Part shown: positions 43,944 through 59,883 of the stretch, one piece after another | How positions within the stretch are numbered: the stretch's first letter is position 1 | Layout: each line of letters starts with the position of its first letter | DNA from: Gemmatimonadaceae bacterium | Lineage (GTDB): Bacteria > Gemmatimonadota > Gemmatimonadetes > Gemmatimonadales > Gemmatimonadaceae | Reading direction: 5' to 3' | NCBI GenBank assembly: GCA_016742275.1 | Contig: JACVCD010000001.1 | Location: 248,001-312,000, forward strand | DNA length: 64,000 nucleotides | Position numbers and translations under genes: made by a program | Notes under the pieces: model-generated | The model's database searches: none | Told to the model about the DNA's origin: nothing | What the model saw: only the letters and a program-made list of their open reading frames with translations

Positions 43944-44978
43944 TCAGTCGTCCTTCTGCCCAAATACAGCCAGGTTCGACGAGTGCCCCGGGTTCACCTT
44001 CTTCTCCGGGTACACGTGGTGCACCGCCTGATTCACCGCGATCGCCGCCTCCGAGAAGCCGGCCGCGATCAGCTTGAGCTTCCCAGGATAGGTGGTGATG
44101 TCGCCGGCGGCGTACACGCCCGGACGACCGGTCTCCATCTGGGTGTTCACCACGATCTCGTCCTTCTCGATGTTCATGCCCCATTCGAGCAGCGCGCCGA
44201 GGTCGGACACGTAGCCCAGCATCGGCAGGATCACGTCGCAGGGAATGTCCTTCGATGTCTTGGCCTTCACGTCCTTGAGCGTGACACCGGTGATGGTGTC
44301 GGTGCCATGGATGGCCTCGAGCTCATGAAACGTGTGGATGTGCACCGTGGCGCCGTCTTCAGCCGCAGCGGTCTGCACTTCGGTGACCGTGGCCGCGTGC
44401 GCGCGGAAACGATCACTGCGATGCACCAGTGTCACACTCTTGGCCTTGTCGCGAAGCTGCGCCGTCCAATCAAAGGCGGAATCGCCGCCACCGATGATCA
44501 GCACGTCACGCCCCCGGAATTCTTCCGGATTCGACACGAGCGGATACACGCCGCGTCCATACCACGGCTCGGCGCAAGCCTGCGGCAGCTTGCGCGGGCT
44601 GAAGGCACCGATACCGGCGGCGATGATCACCGATCGCGTAGGGAAGCGCTCGGTCTCAGTCACCAGCACAAAGTGGCCGTCTTCTTCCTCGAGGCCGGTC
44701 ACTCGCTGACGCAAATGCGCCGGCACACCCGTTTCCCGATGAAACTGCGCCGCCTGCTCCGTCAGGTTGCGAACCAGATCCTTGGCCAAGACACGCGGGA
44801 ATCCGGCCACGTCGAAAATGAACTTCTCCGGATAGAGCGCCGTGAGTTGTCCGCCGAGTTCGGGGAGCGCGTCCACGATCTGCGCCGATGCGCCGCGCAT
44901 GCCGGCATAGAACAGGGCAAACAGGCCAGTGGGGCCGCCGCCAATAATGGTGAGGTCGGTAATCGGATGGGTGTGCAT
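43944..44978 (-). CDS. Ferredoxin-NADP reductase, thioredoxin-reductase-like type
   Basis: Encodes 344 residues from the ATG at 44978, where the Rossmann segment begins at once (LTIIGGGPTGLFALFYAG); a longer in-frame start would add unrelated residues. The NADP-binding fold has LIIGGGDSAFDWT. The C-terminal FAD segment is GVYAAGDITTYPGKLKLIAAG. There is no CxxC between the domains, which separates it from thioredoxin reductase and fits the YumC-type FNR. It supplies or draws electrons from ferredoxin or flavodoxin. The gene is convergent with the four-helix-bundle element. Confidence 0.9.
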   Translation of the reverse strand: MHTHPITDLTIIGGGPTGLFALFYAGMRGASAQIVDALPELGGQLTALYPEKFIFDVAGFPRVLAKDLVRNLTEQAAQFHRETGVPAHLRQRVTGLEEEDGHFVLVTETERFPTRSVIIAAGIGAFSPRKLPQACAEPWYGRGVYPLVSNPEEFRGRDVLIIGGGDSAFDWTAQLRDKAKSVTLVHRSDRFRAHAATVTEVQTAAAEDGATVHIHTFHELEAIHGTDTITGVTLKDVKAKTSKDIPCDVILPMLGYVSDLGALLEWGMNIEKDEIVVNTQMETGRPGVYAAGDITTYPGKLKLIAAGFSEAAIAVNQAVHHVYPEKKVNPGHSSNLAVFGQKDD

Positions 44979-45079
44979 AGCAACAATTCTAAGGGAGGTG
45001 GGGGCGAGCGGAGAGTGGTATTTGTTCTGGGTCGAGCGCGAACTCACTACCACTCCCGGCCCCAATTAGTCTTCCGAGC

Positions 45080-45625
45080 ATGAAGATTTATACCCGGACT
45101 GGCGACGAAGGCGCGACCGCTCTCTTTGGTGGTGGTCGTGTGGGCAAGGACCATCCGCGCGTCGAAGCCTACGGCGATGTCGACGAACTGAACGCATCAC
45201 TCGGCATGGCGCGCAGCATCGAGATGATGCCGCGCATCGACGAAGTGCTGGTTCCGATTCAGCGCGATCTGTTTGCGATTGGCGCTCTGTTGGCCACGCC
45301 TGATCACGACAAGATGCGTGAACAGCTCTCCAAGGCGCGCGTCGACGAAGCCCGTATCGCGGAGCTGGAACACGCGATCGACGCCTGCGAACAGGAGCTC
45401 GAGCCGCTGCGCAGCTTCATCATCCCGGGTGGAACGCCCAAAGCGGCGGCGCTGCATGTCGCGCGCACCGTATGCCGCCGCGCCGAACGTCGGGTGGTGA
45501 GTCTGTCGGCCAATGTGCCGCTGCCGCACCTCGTGGTCATCTATCTCAATCGTCTGTCCGATCTGCTGTTCATGCTCGCCCGCGTTGCCAACAAGCGCGC
45601 GGGTGCCGGCGAAGTGACCTGGTAG
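45080..45625 (+). CDS. Cob(I)alamin adenosyltransferase, PduO type
   Basis: Encodes 181 residues. The enzyme adenosylates corrinoids using ATP to make coenzyme B12. The N-terminal ATP loop MKIYTRTGDEGATALFGGGRV is characteristic, as are VEAYGDVDELNASLG, the helix with RTVCRRAERRVVSL, and YLNRLSDLLFMLAR. Five-helix-bundle length is normal. It is 3 bases from aroB, an unrelated pathway, so the two may simply share a transcript. Confidence 0.92.
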   Translation: MKIYTRTGDEGATALFGGGRVGKDHPRVEAYGDVDELNASLGMARSIEMMPRIDEVLVPIQRDLFAIGALLATPDHDKMREQLSKARVDEARIAELEHAIDACEQELEPLRSFIIPGGTPKAAALHVARTVCRRAERRVVSLSANVPLPHLVVIYLNRLSDLLFMLARVANKRAGAGEVTW

Positions 45626-45628
45626 ACC

Positions 45629-46756
45629 ATGACCGCCGCTCCACTTCCCGGCCAGTCGTTGACTGGACTGCCGCTCAGCTATCCGGTCTACTGCGCCCCG
45701 GGCGCATTGAACGATCTCGCGGCCATCGTGCAGAACGCGGCCTCGGCGCATCGGTACGCCATCATCAGTGATGACACGGTCGCCGCGCATCACGCCGATC
45801 GCATTCTCGATGCATTGCGCACGATTGCCCCGGCCGAGCGATTGACCTGCCTCACCATTCCAGCTGGTGAACAGGAGAAGACCCGCGCGCAATGGGCGTC
45901 GCTGACCGATCGCCTCATCGCATTTGGGGCGGGACGCGACACTACGGTCATCGCGCTCGGTGGTGGTGTCATTGGCGACCTCGCCGGCTTTGTGGCTGCG
46001 ACGTTCATGCGCGGATTGCCGGTGGTGCAGGTTCCCACGTCGTTGCTCGCCATGGTCGACGCGTCCGTGGGTGGCAAGACAGCGGTGGACACACCCGATG
46101 GCAAGAATCTCGTGGGCGCATTCCATGACCCGTCTGCAGTCGTGATGGACACGGAAGTGCTGTCCACCCTGCCGGCGGATGTCCTGCGCACGGGGCTGGC
46201 CGAGATGTTGAAGCATGGGGTCATTGCCGATGCGGCGTATTTCCAGGCCGTGCTCGATGTGGTACCGCTTCTCAATGACGGCAATCGGCGCGATGTGGCT
46301 CAGGCCTTGGCACCGCTCGTAGCTGGCAGCGTGCGGATCAAGGCTGCGGTTGTTGCGGAAGACGCGCGCGAGGGTGGTAAGCGACAAGTCCTGAATTTTG
46401 GGCACACGATTGCGCACGCGATCGAAAAAGTGCGCAACTATGACATGCTGCATGGTGACGCGGTGGCGCTGGGTATGATCGTAGAAGCCCGACTGGCCGA
46501 ACTGTCGGGGCTGACCACGGAGTCGCTGACGTCGATTGTTCGTGAGGCGGTGCAATCGGCCGGGCTTCCAATCACGATGCCTGCAGGTGTCGATCGCGAT
46601 GCGGTGCTGCGCGAAACGCATGGTGACAAGAAGGCGCGCGGCGGTGCGGCACGTTACGCGCTCCCGGTATCACTTGGCGCCATGGATGAGGCCGGCGGAA
46701 GGTGGGCGCGGCCGATTGATGACGCGCTGGTACTCGAGGCCTTGGGAGAGATCTGA
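45629..46756 (+). CDS. aroB: 3-dehydroquinate synthase
   Basis: Encodes 375 residues. AroB converts DAHP to 3-dehydroquinate in the shikimate pathway with NAD and a divalent metal. The NAD site has VIALGGGVIGDLAGFVAATF, the substrate and metal region PTSLLAMVDASVGGKTAVD, and the metal ligands lie in AEMLKHGVIAD, FGHTIAHAIE and LHGDAVALGM. The start ATG lies 3 bases after the previous gene. The stop TGA (46754-46756) overlaps the GAACTGC end of the downstream inverted array. Confidence 0.95.
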   Translation: MTAAPLPGQSLTGLPLSYPVYCAPGALNDLAAIVQNAASAHRYAIISDDTVAAHHADRILDALRTIAPAERLTCLTIPAGEQEKTRAQWASLTDRLIAFGAGRDTTVIALGGGVIGDLAGFVAATFMRGLPVVQVPTSLLAMVDASVGGKTAVDTPDGKNLVGAFHDPSAVVMDTEVLSTLPADVLRTGLAEMLKHGVIADAAYFQAVLDVVPLLNDGNRRDVAQALAPLVAGSVRIKAAVVAEDAREGGKRQVLNFGHTIAHAIEKVRNYDMLHGDAVALGMIVEARLAELSGLTTESLTSIVREAVQSAGLPITMPAGVDRDAVLRETHGDKKARGGAARYALPVSLGAMDEAGGRWARPIDDALVLEALGEI

Positions 46757-47010
46757 ACTGCCGCAACAGCAACAGCAACAGCAACTGACCAACGCGGATT
46801 TACGCGGACAACAGACGGAAACCACACGGATTGGATCGCGGCATTTGGCAGAGTCTTTGGGATTTCAGGATTTCAGGCTCTGATTTTTTCTTTTTTGCTT
46901 CTTTGAATTCTCCCCGGCTCATCAGCCACAAGGTTCCCCAAAAGTCTCACCATCTCATCCGTGTAGTTTCCGTCGGTTTCCGTGTCATCCGTGTTAATCA
47001 GTTGCAGTTC
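46755..47010. repeat. Inverted array with ACGGAT/ACGGAAAC units and AT-rich centre, aroB-rpoD gap
   Basis: The gap after aroB is about 500 bases. The left arm (about 46755-46836) holds GAACTGC, a CAACAG run, then ACGCGGAT, ACGCGGAC, ACGGAAAC and ACACGGAT. The right arm (about 46950-47010) carries the complement: ATCCGTGTAG, TTTCCGTCGG, TTTCCGTGTC, ATCCGTGTTAAT, CAGTTGCAGTTC. The 110-base centre has T-rich stretches (46882-46905). Such ACGGAT-type repeats occur in several bacterial phyla as unexplained dispersed elements. The rest of the gap (47011-47255) holds the promoter and leader of the sigma gene, and nothing else is visible. Confidence 0.75.
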
Positions 47011-47162
47011 CTGCAGTCTTAGTAGTCGACCCGCCGCAACCCAATTTCAGCGCCCCACTCATCAATCCAGCATTTCAAGATTCTTACGGCTGAGACAACA
47101 CCGCCGAAATGTCACAAAGCTGGCGCCGGACTGTCCCATTTGCGCCTGACCGAAAATTTTCA

Positions 47163-47191
47163 TTGACCGTCCAGAACCCGTGTCGTATAGT
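47163..47191 (+). promoter_or_regulatory. Sigma-70-type promoter of the sigma factor gene
   Basis: TTGACC (47163-47168) and TATAGT (47186-47191) are separated by exactly 17 bases and match the housekeeping consensus at nine of twelve positions. A start site near 47198 would give a leader of about 58 bases before the ATG at 47256. This is the clearest promoter in the window. Confidence 0.8.
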
Positions 47192-47206
47192 GGCGCTCCC
47201 ACCCTC

Positions 47207-47234
47207 CCGGGTCGTCCCATTGACCCGGTTTTCT
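47207..47234 (+). promoter_or_regulatory. Terminator-like hairpin in the leader of the sigma gene
   Basis: CCGGGTC (47207-47213) and GACCCGG (47222-47228) form a perfect 7-base-pair stem with an 8-base loop, followed directly by TTTTCT. It begins about 10 bases after the predicted start site and ends 21 bases before the ATG. The form is that of an intrinsic terminator, so early termination or attenuation is possible. Confidence 0.6.
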
Positions 47235-47255
47235 GGACACGTTCGGCGAGGACGT

Positions 47256-48164
47256 ATGCAGGCAGCAGCTGCGACCAGGACTTCTGAAGCTCGTGCCAAA
47301 GGCTTCTTCCGTTCCGCTCCCTCCACCGCCTTCGACCAGTATCTCCACGATATCCAGAAGTTGCCCCTGATCACCGACGCCGCCGAAGAGCGTCGTCTTG
47401 CCCGTCTGGCGCAGAAGGGTGACGAGTCCGCCGCCGAACGACTCGTGACCGCGAACCTCCGGTTCGTGATCAGCTACGTAAAGAAGTATCAGGGACATGG
47501 CCTCGACCTGTCCGAGCTCGTCGCGATCGGCAACGAAGGCCTGCTCAAGGCGGTCCGGAAGTTCGATCCCGATCAGGGCGTCAAGTTCATTTCGTACGCT
47601 GTGTGGTGGGTGCGTCAGGCCGTGCTCAAGGCCCTCGCCGAACAGACCCGCAGCGTCCGTATCCCGCTCAATCAGAATTCGCAGCTCATCCGTCTCGCCC
47701 GTGGCGAGATGATCCTCTCCCAGGTGCTCAACCGTGAGCCCAGCGATGAGGAAATGGCCAAGCTGCTCGGCGAGCCCATCGAACAGGTGCGCGCCGCCCG
47801 CCAGATCACGAGCACCGAAGTCTCGCTCGATGCCCCCATCGATCGTCAGGATCGTGAAGCGTCCACCCTTGGCGAACGGTTCGCGGGTGAAACGCACGCC
47901 GACATCGAAGACGGCACCGATTTCCGCCTGATGCGCGAGTTCATCGACCGCGTCTTCCGGAAGTACCTCACCCCCCGCGAACGCAAGATCCTGTACCTCT
48001 ATTACGGGCTCGACGAAGGGGCGGAAGCCATGACCCTTGAGCGCATTGGCGCGCTCATGGGCGTGACGCGCGAACGCATCCGTCAGATCCGCGAACGCGC
48101 CTTCGAGAAGCTGAGGGAGTCGCCCGATGGACGTGCTCTGGCGGGTTTTTGGGGCGCTGCTTGA
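47256..48164 (+). CDS. rpoD: RpoD/SigA-type RNA polymerase sigma factor without region 1.1
   Basis: Encodes 302 residues from the ATG at 47256, preceded by GCGAGGA as ribosome binding site. Region 1.2 is FDQYLHDIQKLPLIT, region 2 includes NLRFVISYVKKYQGHGLDLSE and FISYAVWWVRQAV (the -10 reading helix), region 3 has IRLARGEMI, and region 4 ends in LMGVTRERIRQIRERAFEKL (the -35 reading helix). Lack of the acidic region 1.1 and the small size fit the short primary sigma factors of several phyla, or a closely related alternative sigma. The gene has its own strong promoter. Confidence 0.9.
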   Translation: MQAAAATRTSEARAKGFFRSAPSTAFDQYLHDIQKLPLITDAAEERRLARLAQKGDESAAERLVTANLRFVISYVKKYQGHGLDLSELVAIGNEGLLKAVRKFDPDQGVKFISYAVWWVRQAVLKALAEQTRSVRIPLNQNSQLIRLARGEMILSQVLNREPSDEEMAKLLGEPIEQVRAARQITSTEVSLDAPIDRQDREASTLGERFAGETHADIEDGTDFRLMREFIDRVFRKYLTPRERKILYLYYGLDEGAEAMTLERIGALMGVTRERIRQIRERAFEKLRESPDGRALAGFWGAA

Positions 48165-48245
48165 AGTTCAGCTCGCCTGATTAAAGCGAGCTCATCCGTA
48201 AGTCGTTGTGTTGTGTGTAGTTCCGCAAACTCTTACAATTAAGGG

Positions 48246-48279
48246 ACGGCGGTTTCCCGGACGATCGGGCGACCGCCGT
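48246..48279 (+). terminator. Intrinsic terminator after the sigma gene
   Basis: ACGGCGGT (48246-48253) pairs with ACCGCCGT (48272-48279), with a second inner CCCG/CGGG stem. A short TTT follows at 48279-48281. It lies 81 bases after the sigma stop codon and 26 bases before the response regulator start. Confidence 0.65.
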
Positions 48280-48305
48280 TTCATGTCTGGACCGGAGTTG
48301 GTTGA

Positions 48306-48686
48306 GTGCCCCGTGCGTTGATCGTGGACGATGAAGCCGGTATTCGTTTTGCCCTCAAGCGCTGGTTTGAGCGACAGCAATGGACGGTAGACGAAGCCGA
48401 AGACGGAAATGCCGCCCTGGCGCTGCTTCGCAGCAGCACTGACGGGGCGACACCATACGATGTTGTTGTATGTGATCTGCATCTGCCCTACCTGAGCGGC
48501 GAAGCAATCGTCGGGTTGATGCGCAACGAGAACCCTGAACTGGCGCGTCGCATCATTCTCACGACCGGCGACGCGGTCACTGACGCCGAACCGGGGTCGA
48601 TTCTGGCCGAACATGCGTTCGTGCTCCAGAAGCCATTTGATCTGGCGACACTGAAGGAGACAGTCGCGAAGGTCACGGCGGGCTGA
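48306..48686 (+). CDS. Stand-alone response regulator receiver protein
   Basis: Encodes 126 residues, a single receiver domain, from the GTG at 48306. The acidic pair is D8/D9 in LIVDDE, the phospho-acceptor D57 in VVCDLHLP, the Thr of LTTGD and the conserved K109 in LQKPF. No output domain is attached, so it should pass or buffer phosphate as in CheY or Spo0F-type relays. No kinase is adjacent. The hybrid kinase at 32.5-36.3 kb carries a related receiver of its own. Confidence 0.9.
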   Translation: MPRALIVDDEAGIRFALKRWFERQQWTVDEAEDGNAALALLRSSTDGATPYDVVVCDLHLPYLSGEAIVGLMRNENPELARRIILTTGDAVTDAEPGSILAEHAFVLQKPFDLATLKETVAKVTAG

Positions 48687-48701
48687 CAGGAACAGCAAAA
48701 A

Positions 48702-48821
48702 GCGGAAGCCAAACGGCGGAAGCGAGTAGACGGAAGCAATGAGCGGAAGCCAAGGCGCGGATACCGCGTGTGGCTTCCGTTTTTTGCTTCCGCCCCGTCG
48801 CTTCCGCTTCAGTGCTACCGC
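48702..48821. repeat. Two-arm palindrome, four GCGGAAGC units each side, before glcD
   Basis: Left units start at 48702, 48716, 48730 (ACGGAAGC) and 48743. Right units start at 48773 (GCTTCCGT), 48786, 48800 and 48814 (GCTACCGC). For every opposed pair, left start plus right end is the same (97523), so spacers of 6, 6 and 5 bases face each other exactly although their sequences do not pair. The axis has CGCGG-ATA-CCGCG (48756-48768). AACAGC precedes and AGTTCAC follows. As RNA it would be a rod of 8-base-pair helices and symmetric internal loops. It ends 22 bases before the glcD ATG. Confidence 0.9.
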
Positions 48822-48843
48822 AGTTCACAGTTTATCTTCCACT

Positions 48844-50241
48844 ATGCTCGCCGCTCTGTCCGCCATCGTCGGCTCCCGCTGGGTGAAATCCCGCCCTGCG
48901 GCGCTCGCCCCTTACGACAGCGACGGACTGCCCGGTTACCACGCCACGCCATCGCTGGCGGTATTTCCCGGGACTCGCGACGAGCTGATTGCCGTGGTGC
49001 GTGAACTCGCCCGCACTGGCACACCATTCGTCCCGCGCGGCGCGGGCACCGGTTTATCGGGTGGCGCACTGGCCAAGGGTGTGGTGCTCATTGGCCTCAA
49101 TCGCCTCACACGCATCATCGAGGTCGATCCGGTCAATCGCATTGCGCGCGTGGAACCAGGCGTGGTGAATGCGCGGCTGTCGCGCGAAACGGTGAAGTAC
49201 GGCCTGCATTACGCACCCGATCCGAGCAGCCAGAGTGTCTGTACCATCGGCGGCAACGTGGCCGAAAACGCGGGCGGACCGCACTGCCTCAAGTACGGCG
49301 TCACACTCAATCACGTCGTCGAGTGCGAAGTGGTACTGCCCGATGGTTCACTCGTGCAGCTTGGCGGCGCATCGCAGGAGTCCGAGGGCTACGACCTGCT
49401 TGGCGCATTTGTCGGCAGCGAAGGATGTTTCGGCATCGCTACGCAGATCACCGTGCGCCTCGTGCCGCTGCCGGAAAGCGTGCACACCATGCTGGCCGAT
49501 TTCTCGAGTGTCACCGACGCCGCGCGTGCCGTGTCCCGCATCATTGCCAGTGGCATCGTGCCCGCCGCGCTCGAGATGATGGACAACGCCACCATCCGTG
49601 CCGTCGAAGCCAGCATCTATGCGGCCGGCTATCCGGTCGATGCCGCCGCCATTCTGCTCTGCGAAGTGGATGGCCCGGTACAGGGATTGGACGAAGACGT
49701 CGCCATCATTCGCGAAGCCTGTCTATTGCACGGCGCGCGCGAAGTCCGTGTGGCAACGGAAGCGGCCGATCGCATGCGACTCTGGCAAGGACGCAAGAAA
49801 GCCTTTGGTGCCATGGGCCGCATTGCCCCGTCGCTCGTGGTGCAGGACGCCGTCGTGCCGCGCACACGACTGCCCCAGGTGCTGGAGCACATCGATCAGA
49901 TCAGCGCCCGACACGGCGTGCGTGTGTGCAACGTGTTTCATGCGGGTGATGGCAATCTGCATCCCAACATTCCTTACGACGCGAGTGACCGCGAGCAGGA
50001 TGCGCGGGTGCACGCTGCCATGAAGGAGATCATGCAGGCCTGCATCGATGCCGGTGGTACCATCACCGGCGAACACGGGGTGGGACTCGACAAGATCGGC
50101 TACATGGAATCGTTGTTCGATGCGCCAACACTCGATGCCATGTGCCGACTGCGCAGCGTATTCGATCCCGACAAGCGCGCCAATCCCGGCAAGGTGGTGC
50201 CCATGCACAGTTGCCGCGAATGGGCAGGTGTGGTGCGATGA
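48844..50241 (+). CDS. glcD: Glycolate oxidase FAD-binding subunit GlcD
   Basis: Encodes 465 residues from the ATG at 48844; the frame is open further upstream only through the repeat. The N-terminal FAD-binding PCMH domain has TPFVPRGAGTGLSGGA and CTIGGNVAENAGGPHCLKYG. The C-terminal FAD-linked oxidase domain includes VFHAGDGNLHPN, GGTITGEHGVG and the metal and substrate His residues. GlcD oxidises glycolate to glyoxylate together with GlcE and GlcF. All three genes overlap by four bases (ATGA), so the complex is co-translated. Confidence 0.92.
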   Translation: MLAALSAIVGSRWVKSRPAALAPYDSDGLPGYHATPSLAVFPGTRDELIAVVRELARTGTPFVPRGAGTGLSGGALAKGVVLIGLNRLTRIIEVDPVNRIARVEPGVVNARLSRETVKYGLHYAPDPSSQSVCTIGGNVAENAGGPHCLKYGVTLNHVVECEVVLPDGSLVQLGGASQESEGYDLLGAFVGSEGCFGIATQITVRLVPLPESVHTMLADFSSVTDAARAVSRIIASGIVPAALEMMDNATIRAVEASIYAAGYPVDAAAILLCEVDGPVQGLDEDVAIIREACLLHGAREVRVATEAADRMRLWQGRKKAFGAMGRIAPSLVVQDAVVPRTRLPQVLEHIDQISARHGVRVCNVFHAGDGNLHPNIPYDASDREQDARVHAAMKEIMQACIDAGGTITGEHGVGLDKIGYMESLFDAPTLDAMCRLRSVFDPDKRANPGKVVPMHSCREWAGVVR

Positions 50242-51386
50242 GCGAGGTACTCGCCCAGCAGATCCGCGCGCATGTCGAATCGCGCACACCATTTCGCCCG
50301 ACAGGTAGCGGAACCTGGCTGCACGGTGGTGGCCCGTTTGCTGATGCCGCACACCTGGACGTGCGTGCGCATGCGCAGGGCGTGGTGGCGTATGAACCCG
50401 GCGATCTTGTCGCGACGGTCGGCGCTGGCACGACCTGGCAGGAATTATCGGACATCACAGCCGTGCACGGTCAGATGTTCGCCATTGCGCCATACGGTTC
50501 GCCGCATAGTACCATCGGCGCCATGGTGGCCACTGCGGCCAGCGCACCGCTGGCCTACGGTGACCTGCTGATGCGCGATCTGGTACTTGGCCTCACGGCC
50601 ATAACCTGTACCGAAACGGGCGAGCGCATTCGTGCTGGCGGACAGGTGGTCAAGAATGTGGCCGGCTTCGATTTGGTGCGGCTTTTTACGGGCGCATTTG
50701 GCACGCTGGGTGTCATCACCGAAGTCAGTCTGCGTCTGCATGCGCGTCCACCGCACGATGACATCGTGAGAGTGCCTCTCGCGCAGGATCTTGCCAGTGT
50801 ACTGCCACAGATCGTGGCCAATCGCGGTCCGGTTTCCCTGCTCATACACATGGCACCGGGACACACACCCGAGCTGTGGGCGCGCATCAGCGGAAACAAC
50901 TCACGCGTTGATGCATTGCGCACGCATGTCGCGGCGCTGGCCATGGCACTGGATAGCGCGTTGCATACGCACGGCACCGCCGACGCACCGCACGACACGC
51001 CGCTGTTTCACTCACCAGCCGATGCGATCGTGTTGCGTCTCCGTACGCCACGCAGTGATGCCGTGCCCTTCGTGACGGCAGCGCGTGAAGCGTTGCCGCA
51101 CGCCACACTGCAGTATCACGTGGAACGCGGCACGTTGCGCGCCATGATCCCCGCAGAACACACCACGCGCGTGGACAAGGACCTCGGCACGCTCTATCGC
51201 ATTGCCGCACAGTTTGGCGCCATGCATACCATCAGTGTGGCATGGGACCAGGGTCGCACTACGCCGGCACCACGCAGTCCGCTCGAGCGTCAGATCAAGC
51301 AACAGTTCGATCCGCATCACTGCTGCAATCGCTGGCGTTCGGCACCAGACGAGATTCCCGATCATCTCACGAGTTCTGCCGCATGA
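50238..51386 (+). CDS. glcE: Glycolate oxidase FAD-binding subunit GlcE
   Basis: Encodes 382 residues from the ATG at 50238 overlapping the glcD stop. A short PCMH domain is visible: TPFRPTGSGTWLHGGG, VATVGAGTTWQELSD, GSPHSTIGAMVATAAS and GGQVVKNVAGFDLVRLFTGA, the last being the GlcE hallmark. The C-terminal half is shorter than in GlcD and lacks the catalytic His block, as expected for the non-catalytic FAD subunit. It is translationally coupled to glcF. Confidence 0.9.
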   Translation: MSEVLAQQIRAHVESRTPFRPTGSGTWLHGGGPFADAAHLDVRAHAQGVVAYEPGDLVATVGAGTTWQELSDITAVHGQMFAIAPYGSPHSTIGAMVATAASAPLAYGDLLMRDLVLGLTAITCTETGERIRAGGQVVKNVAGFDLVRLFTGAFGTLGVITEVSLRLHARPPHDDIVRVPLAQDLASVLPQIVANRGPVSLLIHMAPGHTPELWARISGNNSRVDALRTHVAALAMALDSALHTHGTADAPHDTPLFHSPADAIVLRLRTPRSDAVPFVTAAREALPHATLQYHVERGTLRAMIPAEHTTRVDKDLGTLYRIAAQFGAMHTISVAWDQGRTTPAPRSPLERQIKQQFDPHHCCNRWRSAPDEIPDHLTSSAA

Positions 51387-52741
51387 GTACTTCTCATGAG
51401 ATGACACGGATGAACGAAGCGCGTTCGTGTGCCCTGCCCGGCACACCATTGGCACAGGCTGCAGCCGGACTCGATGCCTGCGTGCACTGCGGGTTCTGTC
51501 TGCAGGCCTGCCCCACGTACGTGAATCTTGAAGACGAAAACGATTCACCGCGTGGCCGCCTCGTGCTGATGCGTCGTCTACTCGATGGCGACATCGCTCC
51601 CACCGATCCCGATATCGGTCAACACCTCGATCGCTGCCTCGGCTGCCGCGCCTGCGAAACCGCCTGTCCGTCGGGTGTGCCCTACGGGGAACTGATCGAA
51701 GCCACGCGCGCCACACTCGCGCCGATTCGCGGCCTGCCCCTCGTGGCACGTCTCATTCTGCGCGTGTTCCGCGTGCACGTGGTGTTGCACACGGCCCTGT
51801 TCTTCGCGCGCCTTTTCCGCAACACCCGTATTCCCGAACTACTCGCGCGCCACGTGCCGCGTCGCCTGGGCTTCCCGCTCGCGATGCTCGCCAGCACCAG
51901 AGCGCGCAGCATCCCCGTCGCTCCTCTCGTCAATTCGCTTCCGCCCACCTCGCTTCCGCCATCAAAGCTTCCGCCCGTCACGCTTCCGCAGTCTGCTGCT
52001 TCAACCAGTCTGTTGACCGGCTGCGTCATGCACGGTCTCCTTCGCCACGTCAATCACGCAACCGAAGAGACACTGGCCCACAACGGCTTCACCCTCACCG
52101 CCACACCGGGTCAACGTTGCTGTGGCGCGCTGCATGCCCATGCGGGTGACATTGAAGCGGCGCGTGAACTCGCACGCCAGAACATTGCGGCCTTCGAACG
52201 CAGTAACCCCGATACCATCGTGGTCAATGCGGCCGGTTGCGGCGCCATGTTCAAACAGTACGGTCATCTGCTGCAGGACGATCCTGTCTGGGCCGCGCGC
52301 GCTTCCATCATTTCAGCAAAAACACGTGATGTAAGTGAGCTGCTAGCCACTACCGGCCCTGTACCTGGCTTACAGCCTGTGCCCGTGCGTGTCACGCACG
52401 ATCCACCGTGCCATCAGATGCATGCACAGCGTGTGGTGACACAACCGATGAAGGTGCTGCAATCCATTCCGGGCCTTGAGTTGGTTCCGCTCGAGGACGC
52501 CGATCAGTGCTGTGGCAGCGCCGGCATCTACAATCTCGTGGAGCCTGACACATCGGATGCGGTGCTGTCTCCCAAGCTGCGACGCATCGCGGAAACGCAC
52601 GCGCAGGTGCTGGCCACCGGAAACCCAGGGTGCATGATGCAGTTGGGTGCCGGACTCCATCTGACCGGATCCGATACCATCGTCAAGCATCCGGTGGAGT
52701 TGTTGGCCGAGTCCTATCGCGGCGGCACTCGACCAGCGTAG
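51383..52741 (+). CDS. glcF: Glycolate oxidase iron-sulfur subunit GlcF, with in-frame repeat insert
   Basis: Encodes 452 residues from the ATG at 51383. Two [4Fe-4S] motifs lie near the N-terminus: C33, C36, C39, C43 (CVHCGFCLQACP) and C85, C88, C91, C95 (CLGCRACETACP). Two C-terminal CCG domains follow (GQRCCGALHAHAGD and DQCCGSAGIYNL). The subunit carries electrons from the FAD subunits to the respiratory chain. Residues 185-203 (SLPPTSLPPSKLPPVTLPQS region) join the two halves and are encoded by a four-unit GCTTCCGC arm, probably a DNA insert tolerated in a linker. Confidence 0.92.
   Translation: MSTSHEMTRMNEARSCALPGTPLAQAAAGLDACVHCGFCLQACPTYVNLEDENDSPRGRLVLMRRLLDGDIAPTDPDIGQHLDRCLGCRACETACPSGVPYGELIEATRATLAPIRGLPLVARLILRVFRVHVVLHTALFFARLFRNTRIPELLARHVPRRLGFPLAMLASTRARSIPVAPLVNSLPPTSLPPSKLPPVTLPQSAASTSLLTGCVMHGLLRHVNHATEETLAHNGFTLTATPGQRCCGALHAHAGDIEAARELARQNIAAFERSNPDTIVVNAAGCGAMFKQYGHLLQDDPVWAARASIISAKTRDVSELLATTGPVPGLQPVPVRVTHDPPCHQMHAQRVVTQPMKVLQSIPGLELVPLEDADQCCGSAGIYNLVEPDTSDAVLSPKLRRIAETHAQVLATGNPGCMMQLGAGLHLTGSDTIVKHPVELLAESYRGGTRPA
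51937..51989. repeat. Single four-unit GCTTCCGC arm inside glcF
   Basis: Four exact GCTTCCGC units start at 51937, 51952, 51967 and 51982, at 15-base spacing, so each is read in the same frame as S/x-L-P-P/Q. AGTCTGCTGC follows, like the AGTTC end of other arms. The 7-base spacers differ from each other. It lies in the linker between the ferredoxin-like and CCG parts of GlcF. Confidence 0.9.
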
Positions 52742-53326
52742 TTGAACGTGCCAGCCACCATCATCGCCTTCGACGGCGCGTTGTTCGATACACTGCCGGC
52801 ACGACGCGCCGCATTGCAGGATGCACTACAGGCGGAAGGAGCGCGGGTCGAAGACAGCGCCCTCGACCTCCTGCTGCCGGGGCGTACATTCGGAGAAGTC
52901 GTGAGCGCACTTGATGCGTTTACTCATGATCCGACAAGCGCCGATCTCGTACTGCTGCGGGTACAGCGACTCTACGCCGCGATTGTCGCGCACGGAGTCC
53001 GTCTCATGCCGGACGGCATGAACGTGCTTCGCGATGCACAACGCGCAGGACACCGTATCATTCTGAGGGCGGACAGTGATCGCCGTCATGTGGAAGCACT
53101 GCTGACACTTTCCGGGCTTGAGACCGGCGTCAATGTGGTGCGCTGTGCCGATGATCCGCCGCGAGGGCCTGCGCCGTCACTGACACGAAGCTGGGAAGTG
53201 ATTCATGAACGCCTCACCAGATTCGCAATTCCGGTAGTCGAGCGGTTCGCCTATGAAGCAACGGAGCGCACCCTTGCCGCTGCTGGGGAAGTCGTCCTAT
53301 CGGGGACCGTAGCCACTCCGCACTAG
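52742..53326 (+). CDS. HAD-like protein lacking the nucleophilic Asp
   Basis: Encodes 194 residues from a TTG at 52742 (a GTG at 52748 is also possible). The overall plan is that of a small HAD phosphatase of the phosphoglycolate type: motif I, helical cap (about 20-95), motif II near IILRADSDRR, and a C-terminal core. Motif I reads IIAFDGALFDTL: where FDLDGTL is usual, the nucleophile Asp is Ala9 while the second Asp (D11) remains. Phosphatase activity by the HAD mechanism is therefore unlikely. Its place directly after glcDEF suggests a derived phosphoglycolate phosphatase, now perhaps a binding or regulatory protein. Confidence 0.7.
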   Translation: MNVPATIIAFDGALFDTLPARRAALQDALQAEGARVEDSALDLLLPGRTFGEVVSALDAFTHDPTSADLVLLRVQRLYAAIVAHGVRLMPDGMNVLRDAQRAGHRIILRADSDRRHVEALLTLSGLETGVNVVRCADDPPRGPAPSLTRSWEVIHERLTRFAIPVVERFAYEATERTLAAAGEVVLSGTVATPH

Positions 53327-53373
53327 ATTCAAATCAGGTTCTTCGCTGCTGTCCTGCTCCATCGAGTCACGTC

Positions 53374-54444
53374 ATGTCCGACACGCCCGAACTGTTGTTT
53401 CCGCCGCCGCTCACTGCGGACGATGCAGAATCGTATCTCGATCTTCGCCGCCGCGCGGTGTGGTTCGAAGCGCAGAATCACTGGAGCCTTATCACGGGCC
53501 CGAGTGCCGCTGACGCGCTCAATGGTCTCGTCACCAACGACGTGGCCGCGCTTGAAGTGGGGCGCGGTCAGCATGCCATCGCATTGACCGCCAAGGGCAA
53601 GGTGGTGTGCGATATGTACATCGCACGTCTCGATGATCAGTCGTTCCTGTGTACGGTCATTCGTGACAGTGCGGCGGCATGGCTGGCTATGGCGCGCAAG
53701 TACATCAATCCTCGGCTCGCCAAGGTGGTCGACGATCATGAGTCGTGGGCGACCTGGATGGTGTTTGGTGCGCAGGCCGCAGAAGCCATTGCAAGCCTGG
53801 GCGGACCCTCGGAAGAAGCCGATTCACCCGATGCATTGGCTGCGCGCATAACACGACTCGAGCAATGGCCGGTCTGGGGACATGCCCCATGGGTGATCGG
53901 TTCTGCCACGGTGCGCCTCATCCGGGCCCCCGTCATGGGCGCGCTGCCGGGTTTCGTGATTCTTGCGCGCGCCGAAGACCGCTCGTTCATCCAGTCGCAA
54001 CTCGCGGCCTCGCCATATCGTCGCGGCAGCCGGTCGGTCTGGAACGTGGCGCGCATCGAAGGAGGCCGTCCGGCATTTGGCGTGGATATGGACGACAACA
54101 CCATCCCGCAGGAAGCCAACCTCGACGTGCTGGGCGCCATCTCCTTCACCAAGGGCTGCTATACGGGCCAAGAGACGGTGGCGCGGGTGCACTTCCGTGG
54201 GCATGTGAACCGCCATCTGCGGGGTCTTCGCGCCACCGAGCCTCTGCCGCAACACGCCCGGGTCCTGGATGAAGCGGGCAAGGATGTGGGGGACGTGCGC
54301 AGTACGGTCATTTCGCCTCGCCTGGGCCCCATCGCCATGGCCATGATCCGCCGAGAGGTCGTCCCCGGTTCGCCCGTTCGCGTCCAGCTCGGGAGCCGGG
54401 AGATTGTCGCGGAAACGGTGGCTCTCCCCTTCGAGGGGAACTAG
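53374..54444 (+). CDS. ygfZ: Folate-binding Fe-S cluster repair protein YgfZ/GcvT-like
   Basis: Encodes 356 residues. The GcvT fold binds tetrahydrofolate, and YgfZ helps to build or repair certain Fe-S proteins. The signature KGCYTGQE is at residues 260-267 (C262 is the conserved redox Cys), followed by TVARVHFRGHVNRHLRGL. The N-terminal half has VTNDVAALEVGRGQHAIAL as in GcvT relatives. The presence of this gene after an Fe-S containing oxidase operon is suggestive but may be chance. A strong hairpin follows the stop. Confidence 0.9.
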   Translation: MSDTPELLFPPPLTADDAESYLDLRRRAVWFEAQNHWSLITGPSAADALNGLVTNDVAALEVGRGQHAIALTAKGKVVCDMYIARLDDQSFLCTVIRDSAAAWLAMARKYINPRLAKVVDDHESWATWMVFGAQAAEAIASLGGPSEEADSPDALAARITRLEQWPVWGHAPWVIGSATVRLIRAPVMGALPGFVILARAEDRSFIQSQLAASPYRRGSRSVWNVARIEGGRPAFGVDMDDNTIPQEANLDVLGAISFTKGCYTGQETVARVHFRGHVNRHLRGLRATEPLPQHARVLDEAGKDVGDVRSTVISPRLGPIAMAMIRREVVPGSPVRVQLGSREIVAETVALPFEGN

Positions 54445-54466
54445 GGCGCTCGTTGGAGTAAATACA

Positions 54467-54499
54467 AAGCGGGCGGGAGACCAGGTCTCCCGCCCGCTT
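54467..54499. terminator. Bidirectional intrinsic terminator
   Basis: AAGCGGGCGGGAGACC (54467-54482) and GGTCTCCCGCCCGCTT (54484-54499) form a perfect 16-base-pair inverted repeat, with a loop formed by the few central bases. TTCATC follows on the plus side and TTTGTATTTA on the minus side. It lies between the convergent ygfZ and the small lipoprotein gene and should stop both. Confidence 0.9.
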
Positions 54500-54529
54500 C
54501 ATCAGTCAGCCAGGCTGACTACAAGCTTC

Positions 54530-54709
54530 TTAGTGCTTGGTCGTGTCGGCGGCCGAATCCGGCTTGGCCGTCGTGTCGACAGCGGCCGAATCCGCAACCG
54601 GCGCCGCAGCGGCCGGGGCGGCCAGAGCGGTGTCAGCGGCCGGGGCCTCTTCCTTGGCGGAGCAGGCGGCGAGCACGAGTGCAGCAGCGACGAGGGCGAT
54701 GCGCTTCAT
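54530..54709 (-). CDS. Small Ala/Asp-rich lipoprotein
   Basis: Encodes 59 residues from the ATG at 54709, preceded by GGAG. The signal peptide MKRIALVAAALVLAAC ends in the lipobox LAAC, so the Cys becomes lipid-modified. The mature part consists only of Ala, Asp, Thr, Pro, Lys and Glu (for example AADTALAAPAAAAPVADSA) and has no fold. Similar short lipoproteins are common in the phylum; their role is unknown. A strong terminator follows. Confidence 0.75.
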   Translation of the reverse strand: MKRIALVAAALVLAACSAKEEAPAADTALAAPAAAAPVADSAAVDTTAKPDSAADTTKH

Positions 54710-54957
54710 GGAGAACTCCAACGGTGCGGTGTAAGCTCCGTGCGTCCTGAAAAGCGCACGGCCCCCTCGGCGGATTTGCCGACGGGGATCTTGCACATCC
54801 AAAGTACCGGTAGAGAACACTGTGTCAAGTGAGACTTCGTGTTAAGAATCACGGCAGAGCCAGCCGTGCAAAGTCTTGCCACACAAGCATTTTCCGACTG
54901 TCACACGGTGACGGGTCCTCGCCGGACCTGCGCCAACCACCTCTTCCATCCAGGCTC

Positions 54958-56403
54958 GTGTCCAGACTTCCTGACACCCTCGGCGCGCTCAAGCGTTCCG
55001 GCTACGCCACTAACCGCCCCGCATCTGTCAAAGATGAGATTCGGCGAAACCTGATTGCCCGCATTCAGGATGGTGGACCGCTTTTCCGCGGAGTGCTTGG
55101 ATATGAAGACAGCGTGATGCCCCAAATTGTTAATGCGCTGTTGGCGCGGCACAATTTCATCCTGCTCGGACTGAGGGGTCAGGCCAAGTCACGTATCCTG
55201 CGTGCACTTGTCTCACTACTCGATGAAGTCATGCCCATCGTCGCCGGCAGTGAAGTAAACGACGATCCATTTCGTCCTATCAGCAAGTACGCGCGCAATC
55301 TGCTGCAGGAGCATGGGGACGACACGCCCATTGCCTGGGTGTCGCGTGATCAACGCTTCGTGGAGAAACTCGCCACACCGGATGTGACTGTTGCCGACAT
55401 CATTGGTGATGTGGATCCCATCAAGGCGGCACGTGGCGGGCATCTGCTGAGCGATGAGCTCACGATTCACTATGGCATGTTGCCGCGCGCGAATCGTGGT
55501 GTGTTTGCACTCAACGAATTGCCCGATCTCGCCGGCAAGGTGCAGGTGGGACTGTTCAATATCATGCAGGAAGGTGATGTGCAGATCAAAGGCTATCCGG
55601 TGCGGCTCGCATTGGATGTGCTGCTCTGCTTCACCGCCAACCCTGAAGACTACACGGCGCGTGGCAAGATCATCACGCCACTCAAGGATCGCATTGGCAG
55701 CGAAATTATCACGCACTACCCCGAACAGGTGGAGCTGGGTGTGCAGATCACACAGCAGGAGGCGTGGACCAATCGCGGCGACAGCGTCGACATTCGTGTA
55801 CCGGATTTGATTGCCGAAGTCGTAGAGCGTGTGGCCTTCGAAGCCCGGGATGACAAGCGCATCGACAAGCGCAGTGGTGTGTCGCAGCGAATGCCCATCA
55901 CGGCCATGGAGAACGTGGTATCGAACGCCGAGGCACGCGCACTGAGACAGGGCGATCGCGAAGCGGTTCCACGCATTGCCGATGTGTATGCGGCGCTGCC
56001 GGCCATCACGGGCAAGATCGAACTCGAGTACGAAGGTGAGCTCGTTGGCGGTGCAGCCATTGCCCGCGAACTCATTCGCCGTGCTTGTCATGCCACACTT
56101 GAAGCACGCACCGGCCACATCGACACCGATGGCATCGTGATGTGGTTCGATCAGGGCAGCGCGTTGCAGGTGGGCGACGACATTTCCATGAGTCTCGTGC
56201 GCCAGGGCTTTGATGTCGTCCCGGGACTGGTGGATATCGTGACCCATCTCGGTCTCGCACCCCAGGACGATGACGCGCTGGTCGTGGTGGCGTGCGAACT
56301 GGTACTTGAAGCCCTCGTAGCGCGCCGCAAGATCTCGCGCTCGGAAGCGGGCACGTATGGCCGCGCCGAGCGGGAAACGCGAAGGAAGCGGGACGATTAT
56401 TAA
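54958..56403 (+). CDS. MoxR/ChlI-like AAA+ ATPase
   Basis: Encodes 481 residues if the GTG at 54958 is the start (MSRLPDTLGALKRSGY); the frame is open upstream to 54829, but that part is not homologous in style. The AAA+ core has Walker A GLRGQAKS (71-78), a Walker B-like GVFALNELPDL and sensor segment LCFTANPEDYTARGKIITPL, DRIGSEI. This is the magnesium-chelatase-I/MoxR class of ATPases, which work with VWA-domain partners. A VWA protein of the right type is at 61281, 5 kb away. The substrate complex is not known. Confidence 0.85.
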   Translation: MSRLPDTLGALKRSGYATNRPASVKDEIRRNLIARIQDGGPLFRGVLGYEDSVMPQIVNALLARHNFILLGLRGQAKSRILRALVSLLDEVMPIVAGSEVNDDPFRPISKYARNLLQEHGDDTPIAWVSRDQRFVEKLATPDVTVADIIGDVDPIKAARGGHLLSDELTIHYGMLPRANRGVFALNELPDLAGKVQVGLFNIMQEGDVQIKGYPVRLALDVLLCFTANPEDYTARGKIITPLKDRIGSEIITHYPEQVELGVQITQQEAWTNRGDSVDIRVPDLIAEVVERVAFEARDDKRIDKRSGVSQRMPITAMENVVSNAEARALRQGDREAVPRIADVYAALPAITGKIELEYEGELVGGAAIARELIRRACHATLEARTGHIDTDGIVMWFDQGSALQVGDDISMSLVRQGFDVVPGLVDIVTHLGLAPQDDDALVVVACELVLEALVARRKISRSEAGTYGRAERETRRKRDDY

Positions 56404-56446
56404 CGAGACATATCTTGTTAATCTGCCATATAGGAAATTTTCTTAG

Positions 56447-56477
56447 CCTTCGGGATTCCTCATCCCCCTCCCGAAGG
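56447..56477 (+). promoter_or_regulatory. Hairpin covering the ribosome binding site of the TonB receptor gene
   Basis: CCTTCGGGA (56447-56455) and TCCCGAAGG (56469-56477) form a perfect 9-base-pair stem ending one base before the ATG at 56479. The likely Shine-Dalgarno GAAGG is the end of the 3' strand, so it would be hidden when folded. This could limit translation or be opened by a factor. Confidence 0.6.
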
Positions 56478-56478
56478 C

Positions 56479-58563
56479 ATGAAAAAACTCTCCGCCCTCA
56501 CATCGTTCCTGTTGCCCGCTGTTCTCCCTGTCACGCTGGAAGCCCAGCAGCGCGACACCTCTGCACGCAACATTGAACCCGTGTCGGTGCGCGGTTCCCG
56601 TGCACCATCAGTGACCGGAGGCGCCACGAGCGTGGTGATCCGTCCTGATTCACTGCCAGTTCCACTGCTGGCCGCTCCGCAACTGGCTGACGTACTGCGT
56701 CAGACAGCCTTCGTTCTGGTTCGCCAGAACTCGCGCGGTGAAATGGAGATCGGTGTGCGTGGCAGCGACTCGCGTCAGGCCGCCGTGCTGCTGGACGGTC
56801 TCCCGCTCACCATTGGTTGGGATTCCCGCACCGATCCGTCGCTGCTTCCCACAACCGGTATCGAAACGATCACCGTCGTGCGCGGTCTGTCGAGTGTACT
56901 CGGCGGCGCCAACACGTTGGGCGGCATCATCCGCATGGACCTCAATGCCCCCGTTTCGCGCAACACGCCCCAGACGGCGTCACTGCGCGTCGGCACCGGC
57001 ATCGATCAGTACAGCGGACGCGTGATCTCGGCCAACGGTGTCGCACCGTTCAGTGTGGGCAACGGTACACTGCGCATTCGTGGTGGCATCACGTCGCGCG
57101 CACGTGACGGTTTCGCGCTCTCGGGCGGTGACGCGGGCGATGGCTTCACCGGCGGCGCTGCTGATCCGGGTGATGCCGGCAACTCCAAGCTTCGCACCAA
57201 CACTGACCAGAAGCAGCTCGATGGTTTTGCTGCCCTGCGCTGGGATCACAACTCCGGCGCGTACATCGGTGTCACGGCCACCGGATACGACACCGAACGT
57301 GGTGTCGCACCGGAACAGCACATCACGGCGCCGCGCTATTGGCGCTATCCGTCGCAGACCCGTACGCTCGGCATGGTCAATGCCGGTACCGGTGTGCGAA
57401 AGACACCGCTCGGTTTTGGTTCGCTGTCGGCGAGTGCGGGCACATCGAAGCAGGAACTCGAAATCGAGACGTACGCCAACCGGCAGTACGCCACGGTGTC
57501 GGCGCGTGAACTTGGCTCCGAACGCAGCAACATTGCGCGCATTGAAGGATCGCACTCGTTGCCGCTCAACATGCAGTTGCGTGTTGCCGCCACGAGCAGC
57601 GATGTGCAGTACGATGAAACACTGGCCGCCGAAAATCCGGCGTCGGTGGCCACACGGTATCAGCAGAAGCTCACGAGCTTTGGTGCGGAACTCGATTTGC
57701 CGTTGTTCTCGCGCTTCCTGCTGAGTGGTGGTGTGGTGCAGGATGAAGCCAAGACGCCGAAGACCGGCGGCCGCACGTCGCTCGGCACGCTCACGCAGAC
57801 CGGCTGGCGCGTGGGTTCGACGTTCAAGGTGAACGACGGTGTGCGTCTTCATGCTTCAGTGAGCGAGCGTGCGCGTTTTGCTGCGCTGCGCGAGCTCTAC
57901 AGCGGCGCACTCAATCGCTTTGATCCCAATCCCAATCTGCTCCCGGAAACGTTGCTCGGCTTTGAAGCCGGCGTGACGCTCGACGGCGGTGTGTTCGCAG
58001 AAAAGGGACTGCAGATGCAGCTGGTCGGCTTTGCCCATCGTCTCGATGACGCCGTCGTGCGTATCACGCTGCCGAACCGTCTCTTCCGTCGCATCAACCG
58101 CGACGAGATCAAGAGCCAGGGCGCCGAAGCATTGGTGTCGTGGACACCGTCAGGCCTGCGCGGCACAACGTTCACGGGCGATGCCACGCTGCAGCGCATC
58201 CGTGTGTACGATCAGACGATCACGAGCGGCAGCAATGAACGCTTCCCCGAGCACAACCCGGAGCGTCGCGCATCACTGGCCGTGATCTCGCCCGCCTTCG
58301 CCGGCATCCGCGCCAGCGCCATGGCGCGTCACATCGGCACGCAGTACTGCCAGCATCCCGACCTCGGCCGTCAGGTCGAACTCAAGTCGCAGACCATCGG
58401 TGACGCCGCCCTGCAGCGTGGCTTCAGCGTGCGCCGCGGCGGACTACTGCAGCGCCTCACCGCGCTGGTCGCGATGGACAACGTGGGCAACGTGACGGCG
58501 TACGATCAGTGCGGACTGCCTCAGGCGGGAAGGACACTGCGGTTTGGGCTGACGCTGCAGTAA
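56479..58563 (+). CDS. TonB-dependent outer-membrane receptor
   Basis: Encodes 694 residues. A signal peptide (MKKLSALTSFLLPAVLPVTLEA) precedes a plug domain (about 35-150), with APQLADVLRQTAFVLVRQNS, GVRGSDSRQAAVLLDGLPL and VVRGLSSVLGGANTLGGII, the typical plug motifs. The rest is the 22-strand barrel, ending in LRFGLTLQ. Receptors of this fold import iron chelates, cobalamin or other large molecules; the ligand is not evident. The upstream leader has a hairpin over the ribosome binding site. The stop TAA is followed by a palindromic repeat. Confidence 0.9.
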   Translation: MKKLSALTSFLLPAVLPVTLEAQQRDTSARNIEPVSVRGSRAPSVTGGATSVVIRPDSLPVPLLAAPQLADVLRQTAFVLVRQNSRGEMEIGVRGSDSRQAAVLLDGLPLTIGWDSRTDPSLLPTTGIETITVVRGLSSVLGGANTLGGIIRMDLNAPVSRNTPQTASLRVGTGIDQYSGRVISANGVAPFSVGNGTLRIRGGITSRARDGFALSGGDAGDGFTGGAADPGDAGNSKLRTNTDQKQLDGFAALRWDHNSGAYIGVTATGYDTERGVAPEQHITAPRYWRYPSQTRTLGMVNAGTGVRKTPLGFGSLSASAGTSKQELEIETYANRQYATVSARELGSERSNIARIEGSHSLPLNMQLRVAATSSDVQYDETLAAENPASVATRYQQKLTSFGAELDLPLFSRFLLSGGVVQDEAKTPKTGGRTSLGTLTQTGWRVGSTFKVNDGVRLHASVSERARFAALRELYSGALNRFDPNPNLLPETLLGFEAGVTLDGGVFAEKGLQMQLVGFAHRLDDAVVRITLPNRLFRRINRDEIKSQGAEALVSWTPSGLRGTTFTGDATLQRIRVYDQTITSGSNERFPEHNPERRASLAVISPAFAGIRASAMARHIGTQYCQHPDLGRQVELKSQTIGDAALQRGFSVRRGGLLQRLTALVAMDNVGNVTAYDQCGLPQAGRTLRFGLTLQ

Positions 58564-58577
58564 GGCAACAGCAAACT

Positions 58578-58691
58578 GCGGAAGCGTAACAGCGGAAGCG
58601 AAAGGCGGAAGCCAAACCCGGAAGCGAAGGCCCGGGACTTGGCTTCCGCTTTTTTGCATCCGTTACTTCGCGTCCGCTGGTTCGCTACCGC
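58578..58691. repeat. Two-arm palindrome between the TonB receptor and rfbB
   Basis: Left units start at 58578, 58592, 58605 and 58618 (CCGGAAGC), spacing 14, 13 and 13. Right units start at 58642 (GCTTCCGC), 58656 (GCATCCGT), 58670 (GCGTCCGC) and 58684 (GCTACCGC), spacing 14 each. CCCGGG lies at the axis. AACAGCAAACT precedes the left arm, and CGTTCGCTGTTC follows the right. The last unit overlaps the stop codon of rfbB (58685-58687). Confidence 0.9.
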
Positions 58692-59725
58692 CGTTCGCTG
58701 TTCAAATACCAACGTACCGTGTCGCTTACACCTAACTCAAAGGTTGTCGTCGCCTGCATTCCCATCTCTGTCTGCAGGCGATTTCCGTTCAACGCGTATC
58801 GCCGGTCGTGTCCCAATCGATCAGTCACATGCAACACCAGTGATATGCAAGCCACTCCCCTGGCCGCTGGGCAATTCGGATAGCGCTCGGCCAACGTGAG
58901 GTCGGCGGCAAACGCCGCATCGATTGCTGCGCATAGCGTGTGGACCACCTCGAGATTGCTGCACTCGTAGTTGCCGGCGAGGTTGTACGACCCGTGGGCT
59001 GATGGGGAGTTCAGCAAGCCGGTCAGCATACGCGCATGATCGGTCACATGCAGCCACTCACGTCGCTGCAGACCATCACCGTATACGGGCAGCGACTCAC
59101 CAGCCAGCGCGCGAGTGATCATGAGCGGCATGAGCTTCTCTGCATGCTGCCATGGGCCGTAGTTGTTGGCGCAATGCGTCATCACATACGGCAATCCGAA
59201 TGTGTATCCCCAGCTCCGCACCAGATGATCGGCGGCTGCTTTGCTCGCCGCATAGGGAGAGCTGGGCCGATATGGTGCGGACTCAGTCACCGGTGCGGCG
59301 TTGGCATCGAGCGGTCCGAACACCTCATCGGTGCTCACATGGTGAAATCGCACACCATCCCGCCATACACCATTCCGCTGCCATGCCGCACGTGCCGCAT
59401 CGAGCAGCACCTGCGTCCCCACCACATTTGTGCGCACAAACGCCGCCGGCCCGGCAATGCTGCGATCTACATGCGATTCGGCCGCGAGATGCAGCACTCG
59501 TGTGATGTCGTGGTCGGCGAATACACGATTGACCGCGTCTAGGTCAGCCACATCGCCGTGTATCAGCGTCACCTGCCCCGATTGCTCGAGTGACGACAGC
59601 CCCTCGCGACGCGAGGCGTACGTAAGTGCATCGAGCACCACCACGCGTTCACTCGCGTGGCGCGCACACCAGTGATGCAGGAAGTTGAGGCCGACAAAGC
59701 CGGCACCACCGGAGATCAGGAGCAT
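58685..59725 (-). CDS. rfbB: dTDP-glucose 4,6-dehydratase
   Basis: Encodes 346 residues. RfbB makes dTDP-4-keto-6-deoxyglucose, the first committed step to rhamnose and other deoxysugars of surface glycans. The NAD Rossmann motif is GGAGFVGLNFLHHW, the active-site Tyr and Lys are in YAASKAAADHLV, and HVSTDEVFG holds the catalytic acidic pair. Other rml genes are not in the window. The last codons and stop (SERR, TAG) are encoded within a palindromic repeat unit, so the repeat may have redefined the C-terminus. A second repeat stands just upstream. Confidence 0.9.
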   Translation of the reverse strand: MLLISGGAGFVGLNFLHHWCARHASERVVVLDALTYASRREGLSSLEQSGQVTLIHGDVADLDAVNRVFADHDITRVLHLAAESHVDRSIAGPAAFVRTNVVGTQVLLDAARAAWQRNGVWRDGVRFHHVSTDEVFGPLDANAAPVTESAPYRPSSPYAASKAAADHLVRSWGYTFGLPYVMTHCANNYGPWQHAEKLMPLMITRALAGESLPVYGDGLQRREWLHVTDHARMLTGLLNSPSAHGSYNLAGNYECSNLEVVHTLCAAIDAAFAADLTLAERYPNCPAARGVACISLVLHVTDRLGHDRRYALNGNRLQTEMGMQATTTFELGVSDTVRWYLNSERR

Positions 59726-59743
59726 GGGAAAGACTCAAGGCTT

Positions 59744-59883
59744 GTGAACTGCAAACTGCGGAAGCGCAGGGGCGGAAGCGATAGACGGAAGCCAAGAGCG
59801 GAAGCCAACTCGCGGTCCCGCGAATGGCTTCCGAGCGTTTGCTTCCGCCACCTCGCTTCCGCTTCTCCGCTTCCGCAGTTCAC
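59744..59883. repeat. Two-arm palindrome between rfbB and the MFS gene
   Basis: Left units start at 59758, 59772, 59785 (ACGGAAGC) and 59798 (spacing 14, 13 and 13, as at 58.6 kb). Right units start at 59827 (GCTTCCGA), 59841, 59855 and 59869 (spacing 14 each). The ends are exact complements: GTGAACTGC (59744-59752) and GCAGTTCAC (59875-59883). The axis has CGCGG-TC-CCGCG (59811-59822). This is the most complete copy and defines the probable element borders. Confidence 0.92.

Follow-up and report, generated by a model that had tools for sequence, protein, structure and literature searches.

The window analysed here, a 64,000-nucleotide stretch from a Gemmatimonadaceae genome (G000; other G numbers denote other genomes compared), carries a block of tandem DNA units inside the linker of its glcF gene. 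This block is a single arm of a repeat family dispersed through the genome, and the partner of that family is probably the PF05635 gene at positions 43419-43838, a reading that we give a probability of about 0.58. PF05635 genes are strongly associated with repeats, and the evidence suggests that this gene belongs to one system with the repeats scattered through the genome. That a PF05635 gene is the likely partner of the family is the new point made here.

The block lies at 51937-51989 on the plus strand. Its host gene, glcF (51410-52741, plus strand), was assigned by translation and by its top NCBIfam profile, GlcF NF008434, which it matches with an E-value of 3e-86, yet under the curated cut-off. 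Four exact GCTTCCGC units begin at 51937, 51952, 51967 and 51982, at in-frame steps of 15 bases, and encode the peptide SLPPTSLPPSKLPPVTLPQ with its LPP/LPQ repeats (LPPTS LPPSK LPPVT LPQ). Sequence and translation confirm in this respect what an earlier sequence-only reading had described. On their 3' side, up to about 52003, comes AGTCTGCTGCTTC, a variant form of the tail seen throughout the family, AGTTTGCTGTTC.

The unit is far more frequent than chance would provide. It occurs 39 times in the window, where dinucleotide shuffles average 4.6, roughly an eight-fold excess that none of 100 shuffles reached, and exact unit pairs 3-9 bases apart number 66 in the whole genome against 2 for a reversed-pattern control. 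Exact pairs were counted genome-wide and degenerate arms in selected genome pieces, those of G000 having been picked for containing exact pairs; arrays may be collapsed in assemblies. A typical copy consists of an arm of four units and then a tail near AGTTTGCTGTTC, each arm being built from four 8-base cores with free spacers.

PF05635 genes and their matching units

The proposed partner gene encodes a protein of 139 amino acids on the plus strand, with a likely ATG start at 43419 in an open reading frame (ORF) that spans 43368-43838. It matches PF05635 (23S_rRNA_IVP) with an E-value of 6e-13 and 49.3 bits (cut-off 33.8), and the four-helix-bundle profile TIGR02436 with a score of 55.8 (cut-off 24). 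The predicted monomer is a confident four-helix bundle (pLDDT 95), which together with profile scores above the curated cut-offs places the protein in the PF05635/S23p family. Its predicted fold is nearest to structure 2GSC (TM on target 0.93) and is also similar to Avd (4DWL, 0.85), a protein that PF05635 members are reported to resemble (PMC10053308). S23p-family proteins have no known function, and the Xanthomonas member assembles five four-helix bundles into a ring (PMC4990558).

Inverted arms enclose the gene. The left arm (43286-43338, minus strand, tail at about 43272-43285) and the right arm (43879-43927, plus strand, tail to about 43940) are oriented as in pairs that lack an ORF. Such flanks are common among relatives. 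When at least five inverted 10-mers common to both 500-bp flanks are demanded, 52 of the genus's 68 PF05635 genes with sufficient flanking sequence pass, versus 2 of 92 short genes and 41 of 685 random windows (p <1e-24), the PF05635 loci having been picked partly for best scores. The same holds for 19 of 28 PF05635 genes from other genera of the phylum. The flank repeats themselves vary between PF05635 genes.

Gene and unit match within several species. The window gene groups in a PF05635 tree with those of G001, G022 and G021, then with that of G020. Double-arm elements of the species' own type lie on both sides of the gene in G001 and G022. Inverted GTCTTCCCGCAGTAA units surround the G021 orthologue and are also the units of the GlcF linker and RND-pump loop of G021. 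In G012, AGCTCGCGCC units flank a PF05635 gene and (C)AGCTCGCGCCGTC units occupy the GlcF linker. The pairing rule is also predictive. Units were taken from the flanks of one G029 gene and one G020 gene before any searching, and each uncovered a dispersed family: CTTAGCGC forms 36 pairs in G029 and no pair in either G000 or G020, and AGCTCCCG forms 55 pairs in G020, 2 in G000, 3 in G021 and none in G029. All examined copies of these two families were called non-coding by the simple codon-usage finder used for gene calls throughout, and several are inverted pairs. For other PF05635 paralogues of G000 and G001 (C31, L271), flank 8-mers showed no clear excess in the genome pieces examined.

Some PF05635 loci have distinctive architectures. 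Very long inverted flanks, hundreds of bases with several nested unit types, surround the genes at L331 and L322 (G004:C31 and G015:C4). PF05635 genes from other genera of this family and order (L369, L376) sit between inverted runs of 7-8-base tandem repeats (CCTGATA; ACGGCGGA). At L330:1993-3639 (G004:C58) a PF05635 ORF continues in frame across its flanking repeat, PETRNPEPETRNPK, and on into the next gene downstream, which by eye is GTPase-like and resembles YchF; this is either a fusion or an assembly error. One PF05635 ORF is broken by a single TGA in a single-contig genome (G020:C1:995518-995826, L285). Copies of the repeat are densest around the PF05635 gene in G000 (window 43000-61000) and in G001 (L218-L220, G001:C6); this is not so in G020.

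Arms within genes and between them

Arms inside genes are single, mostly have 15-base steps, and fall in the linkers or loops of unrelated proteins: a permease, GlcF, an RND pump, a CheA-like kinase, a 2-oxoacid dehydrogenase E2 and FliO/P (names given by eye from sequence, except for GlcF and the permease). They are read in four frames, as AEA, ASA, LPP or GSE. The permease gene (3176-4747, minus strand) holds a plus-strand arm at 4017-4069 with 15-base steps that is antisense to the gene and encodes AEAK repeats. An arm at 60528-60577 (plus strand) in the MFS gene (59886-61292, minus strand) has 14-base steps and a mismatch in one unit, and encodes SGSEGAEAKLRMPTSGS in frame. Steps of 15 bases make up 40 of 44 coding intervals versus 11 of 83 non-coding ones (p 2e-18).

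Outside genes, arms occur mostly as inverted pairs with 13-14-base steps, the left arm on the minus strand and the right one on the plus, with their tails pointing outward and a short GC-rich loop between them. Many of the tails lie 8-24 bp 3' of a stop codon. The window contains three such double-arm elements without a PF05635 gene. The first (48702-48821; arms 48702-48750, minus, and 48773-48821, plus) has no ORF, follows a stop codon by 16 bp and precedes glcD. The second lies between convergent genes and has a degenerate right arm (58578-58703), and the third forms a long hairpin (59758-59876). Two intergenic double-arm elements fold far more stably than shuffled sequences (z -8.4, and -7.5 for the third element). 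Unlike these pairs, the single glcF arm gave no strong fold in the same test, and an Rfam scan of the window returned no RNA family at gathering threshold. One seven-unit arm (L040:8646-8737, G000:C7) has four identical successive spacers (AGTCTC), a sign of recent tandem unit gain.

The sequence-only reading had proposed that one nucleotide unit gives unrelated peptides and that the DNA, not the peptide, is conserved. Both proposals are supported. Besides being read in several frames, the unit uses codons that in G000 coding arms are rarer than genome usage (z -5.8). Between orthologous arms of G001 and G022, the best-kept bases of the unit core are 95-97% identical, against 76% in spacers and 73-78% in flanks; unit conservation is inflated by the bases used for calling units, an effect that is smaller in this cross-species comparison. 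Units are thus kept while spacers drift, which argues that the conserved entity is the DNA unit and that the peptide varies. Among G000 arms, 44 of the 46 spacers in 15-base steps and 35 of the 43 in 14-base steps are distinct. This disfavours recent copying of whole arms, or gene conversion, as the source of the uniformity of units.

Comparison of GlcF proteins does not refute this conclusion. Distant GlcF proteins, examined for an old protein feature at this place, lack the block, and the linker is hypervariable. This hypervariability is seen among congeners, most of which are without any such array. Those with repeats carry TCTTCCCGCAGTACG units in G021, CAGCTCGCGCCGTC-like units in G012, degenerate units ending in GCTATCGC in G001 and G022, a reversed GCGGAAGC form in G003, and the simple repeat (TCTGCG)n at L097. 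The RND-pump loop has arms in G000, G001 and G022 and a different unit, its own, in G021. The frame of the FliO/P linker arm differs between G000 and G021. In the MFS loop, G000 has one arm, G001 and G022 have an in-frame double-arm element, and G021 and G029 have no arm.

Many intergenic arms occupy orthologous sites in G000, G001 and G022 (identity about 78%), and each is made of the unit proper to its species. As the fourth unit, GCTTCCGC outnumbers GCTATCGC by 28 to 0 in G000; the corresponding counts for G001 plus G022 are 3 and 38 (p 3e-16). Three intergenic G001 elements are missing from G000. At L219:14270-14296 (G001), the end of an inserted element provides the stop codon of the neighbouring gene, a TAG within GCGATAGC; a TAA is provided at a second site near 18782.

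Propagation versus host function

Copies of the family favour protein linkers and positions shortly after stop codons, and adopt the 15-base form within genes. In the explanation favoured here, the PF05635 protein would recognise the units and propagate them. The protein, which probably forms a pentameric ring as its solved relatives do, might bind the array of units either in DNA or in a single strand, and this recognition would let arms or hairpins be copied elsewhere. ORF-less copies would then be non-autonomous derivatives. Within genes, a copy would survive only if it preserves the reading frame and yields a flexible linker peptide such as LPP, ASA, AEA or GSE.

Several observations weigh against this explanation. 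Clear inverted flanks are missing from 24% of PF05635 genes. The larger G021 family, GCTTCCGCMGTACAG, is shifted by one base from the arms of its gene, and the flank arms in G012 are direct rather than inverted. G003, whose assembly is 59% complete, has the repeats but yielded no PF05635 flanks that match them. No target-site duplication was seen at the three sites where G001 has an element and G000 does not. Spacers are not common to copies and many positions are common to species at 78% identity, which speaks against frequent movement. To our knowledge, no catalytic activity has been described for PF05635.

The main rival is that the arrays serve the host. The PF05635 protein or some other factor would bind them, for example in mRNA 3'-end handling or chromosome organisation, and the arrays would evolve in place by mutation and unit slippage, with units changing together with the factor in each lineage and with little or no mobility. 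The upkeep of units amid spacer drift, the positions common to several species, the strong 3'-end hairpins and the tandem gain of identical units, as at L040, all fit this idea. It accounts poorly for single arms that are unable to form a hairpin in the linkers of unrelated genes, and for presence/absence differences among species. The GlcF linker units of G003 and G000 also have opposite orientations, suggesting independent arrival. On balance, a host function is an unlikely explanation, at perhaps one chance in a few.

It is still less probable that the PF05635 gene is a mere passenger that lies by chance within one copy, and that the arms are the ends of an element moved by an enzyme encoded elsewhere. 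In favour of this, arms alone are dispersed, and no enzymatic activity is known for PF05635. Against it, the association recurs across many PF05635 genes with differing units, and flank units predict each genome's own unit. Another possibility is that slippage produced a low-complexity linker peptide, which was retained for its role in the protein, without any DNA element. This would suit a hypervariable linker with simple repeats in some congeners, such as (TCTGCG)n at L097, but is very improbable, being already contradicted by a DNA unit shared by genes in four reading frames and by intergenic hairpins, with rare codons and differing spacers.

If the partnership of PF05635 protein and repeat is correct, a cognate repeat family gives S23p-family proteins a testable function: recognising, and then propagating or using, a sequence-specific array. 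The family also shows how non-coding repeats can enter proteins, becoming linkers whose coding sequence is constrained at the DNA level. A more general proposition, for which the odds fall a little short of even, is that PF05635 (IVP/S23p/Avd-like) proteins partner a broad class of propagating arrays, each gene co-evolving with its own unit, which would spread as hairpins after stop codons and as in-frame linkers without a transposase or reverse transcriptase. The open-access literature (most subscription papers and preprints lie outside it) yielded nothing relevant on Gemmatimonas repeats or on four-helix-bundle/S23p proteins with inverted repeats.

Comparison with known systems

REPIN-RAYT systems offer close parallels in organisation. 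They too comprise species-specific inverted hairpin pairs that are mostly intergenic, and a low-copy gene flanked by matching repeats, with orthologous gene and repeat changing jointly (Bertels and Rainey 2011, PMC3116915). The two folded intergenic double-arm elements have the two-inverted-repeat hairpin form, and the dispersed repeats match the flanks of a partner gene, with the PF05635 gene replacing the RAYT. The present family differs in several respects. Its arms are four-core arrays with free spacers rather than small palindromes, some of them stand alone and in frame inside genes, and the partner is a four-helix-bundle protein instead of a Y1 transposase. The Y1_Tnp profile (PF01797) is absent in seven element-bearing genomes (G000, G001, G022, G021, G003, G020 and G029), and five control genomes were positive.

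Intervening sequences of 23S rRNA can carry an S23p ORF, for example in Coxiella (PMC4990558). The family described here is found outside rRNA genes (no Rfam family was detected in the window), has arms of tandem units, and includes dispersed copies without an ORF. Diversity-generating retroelements (DGRs) include Avd (PMC10053308), whose fold the predicted structure of the window protein shares. A DGR has a reverse transcriptase beside Avd, whereas most element-bearing genomes are without one: RVT_1 is absent in G001, G022, G020, G029 and G003. No template/variable repeat pair turned up, although no search was aimed at one. A REP/RAYT system or a reverse-transcriptase system of DGR or retron type is thus highly improbable, and both are rejected for most element-bearing genomes, barring incomplete assemblies.

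Rickettsia palindromic elements are repeats whose in-frame copies occur in unrelated genes and in variable peptide contexts. The sequence-only reading had likened the glcF block to them, an interpretation that survives in part. The shared nucleotide unit and the in-frame copies inside unrelated genes stand, but membership in that group is not supported: a coding copy in G000 is one non-palindromic arm with 15-base steps and no fold of its own, yet the MFS loop of G001 and G022 holds an in-frame double-arm copy. In further distinction from the Rickettsia elements, the unit is species-specific and the family is tied to a cognate gene of the PF05635 type.
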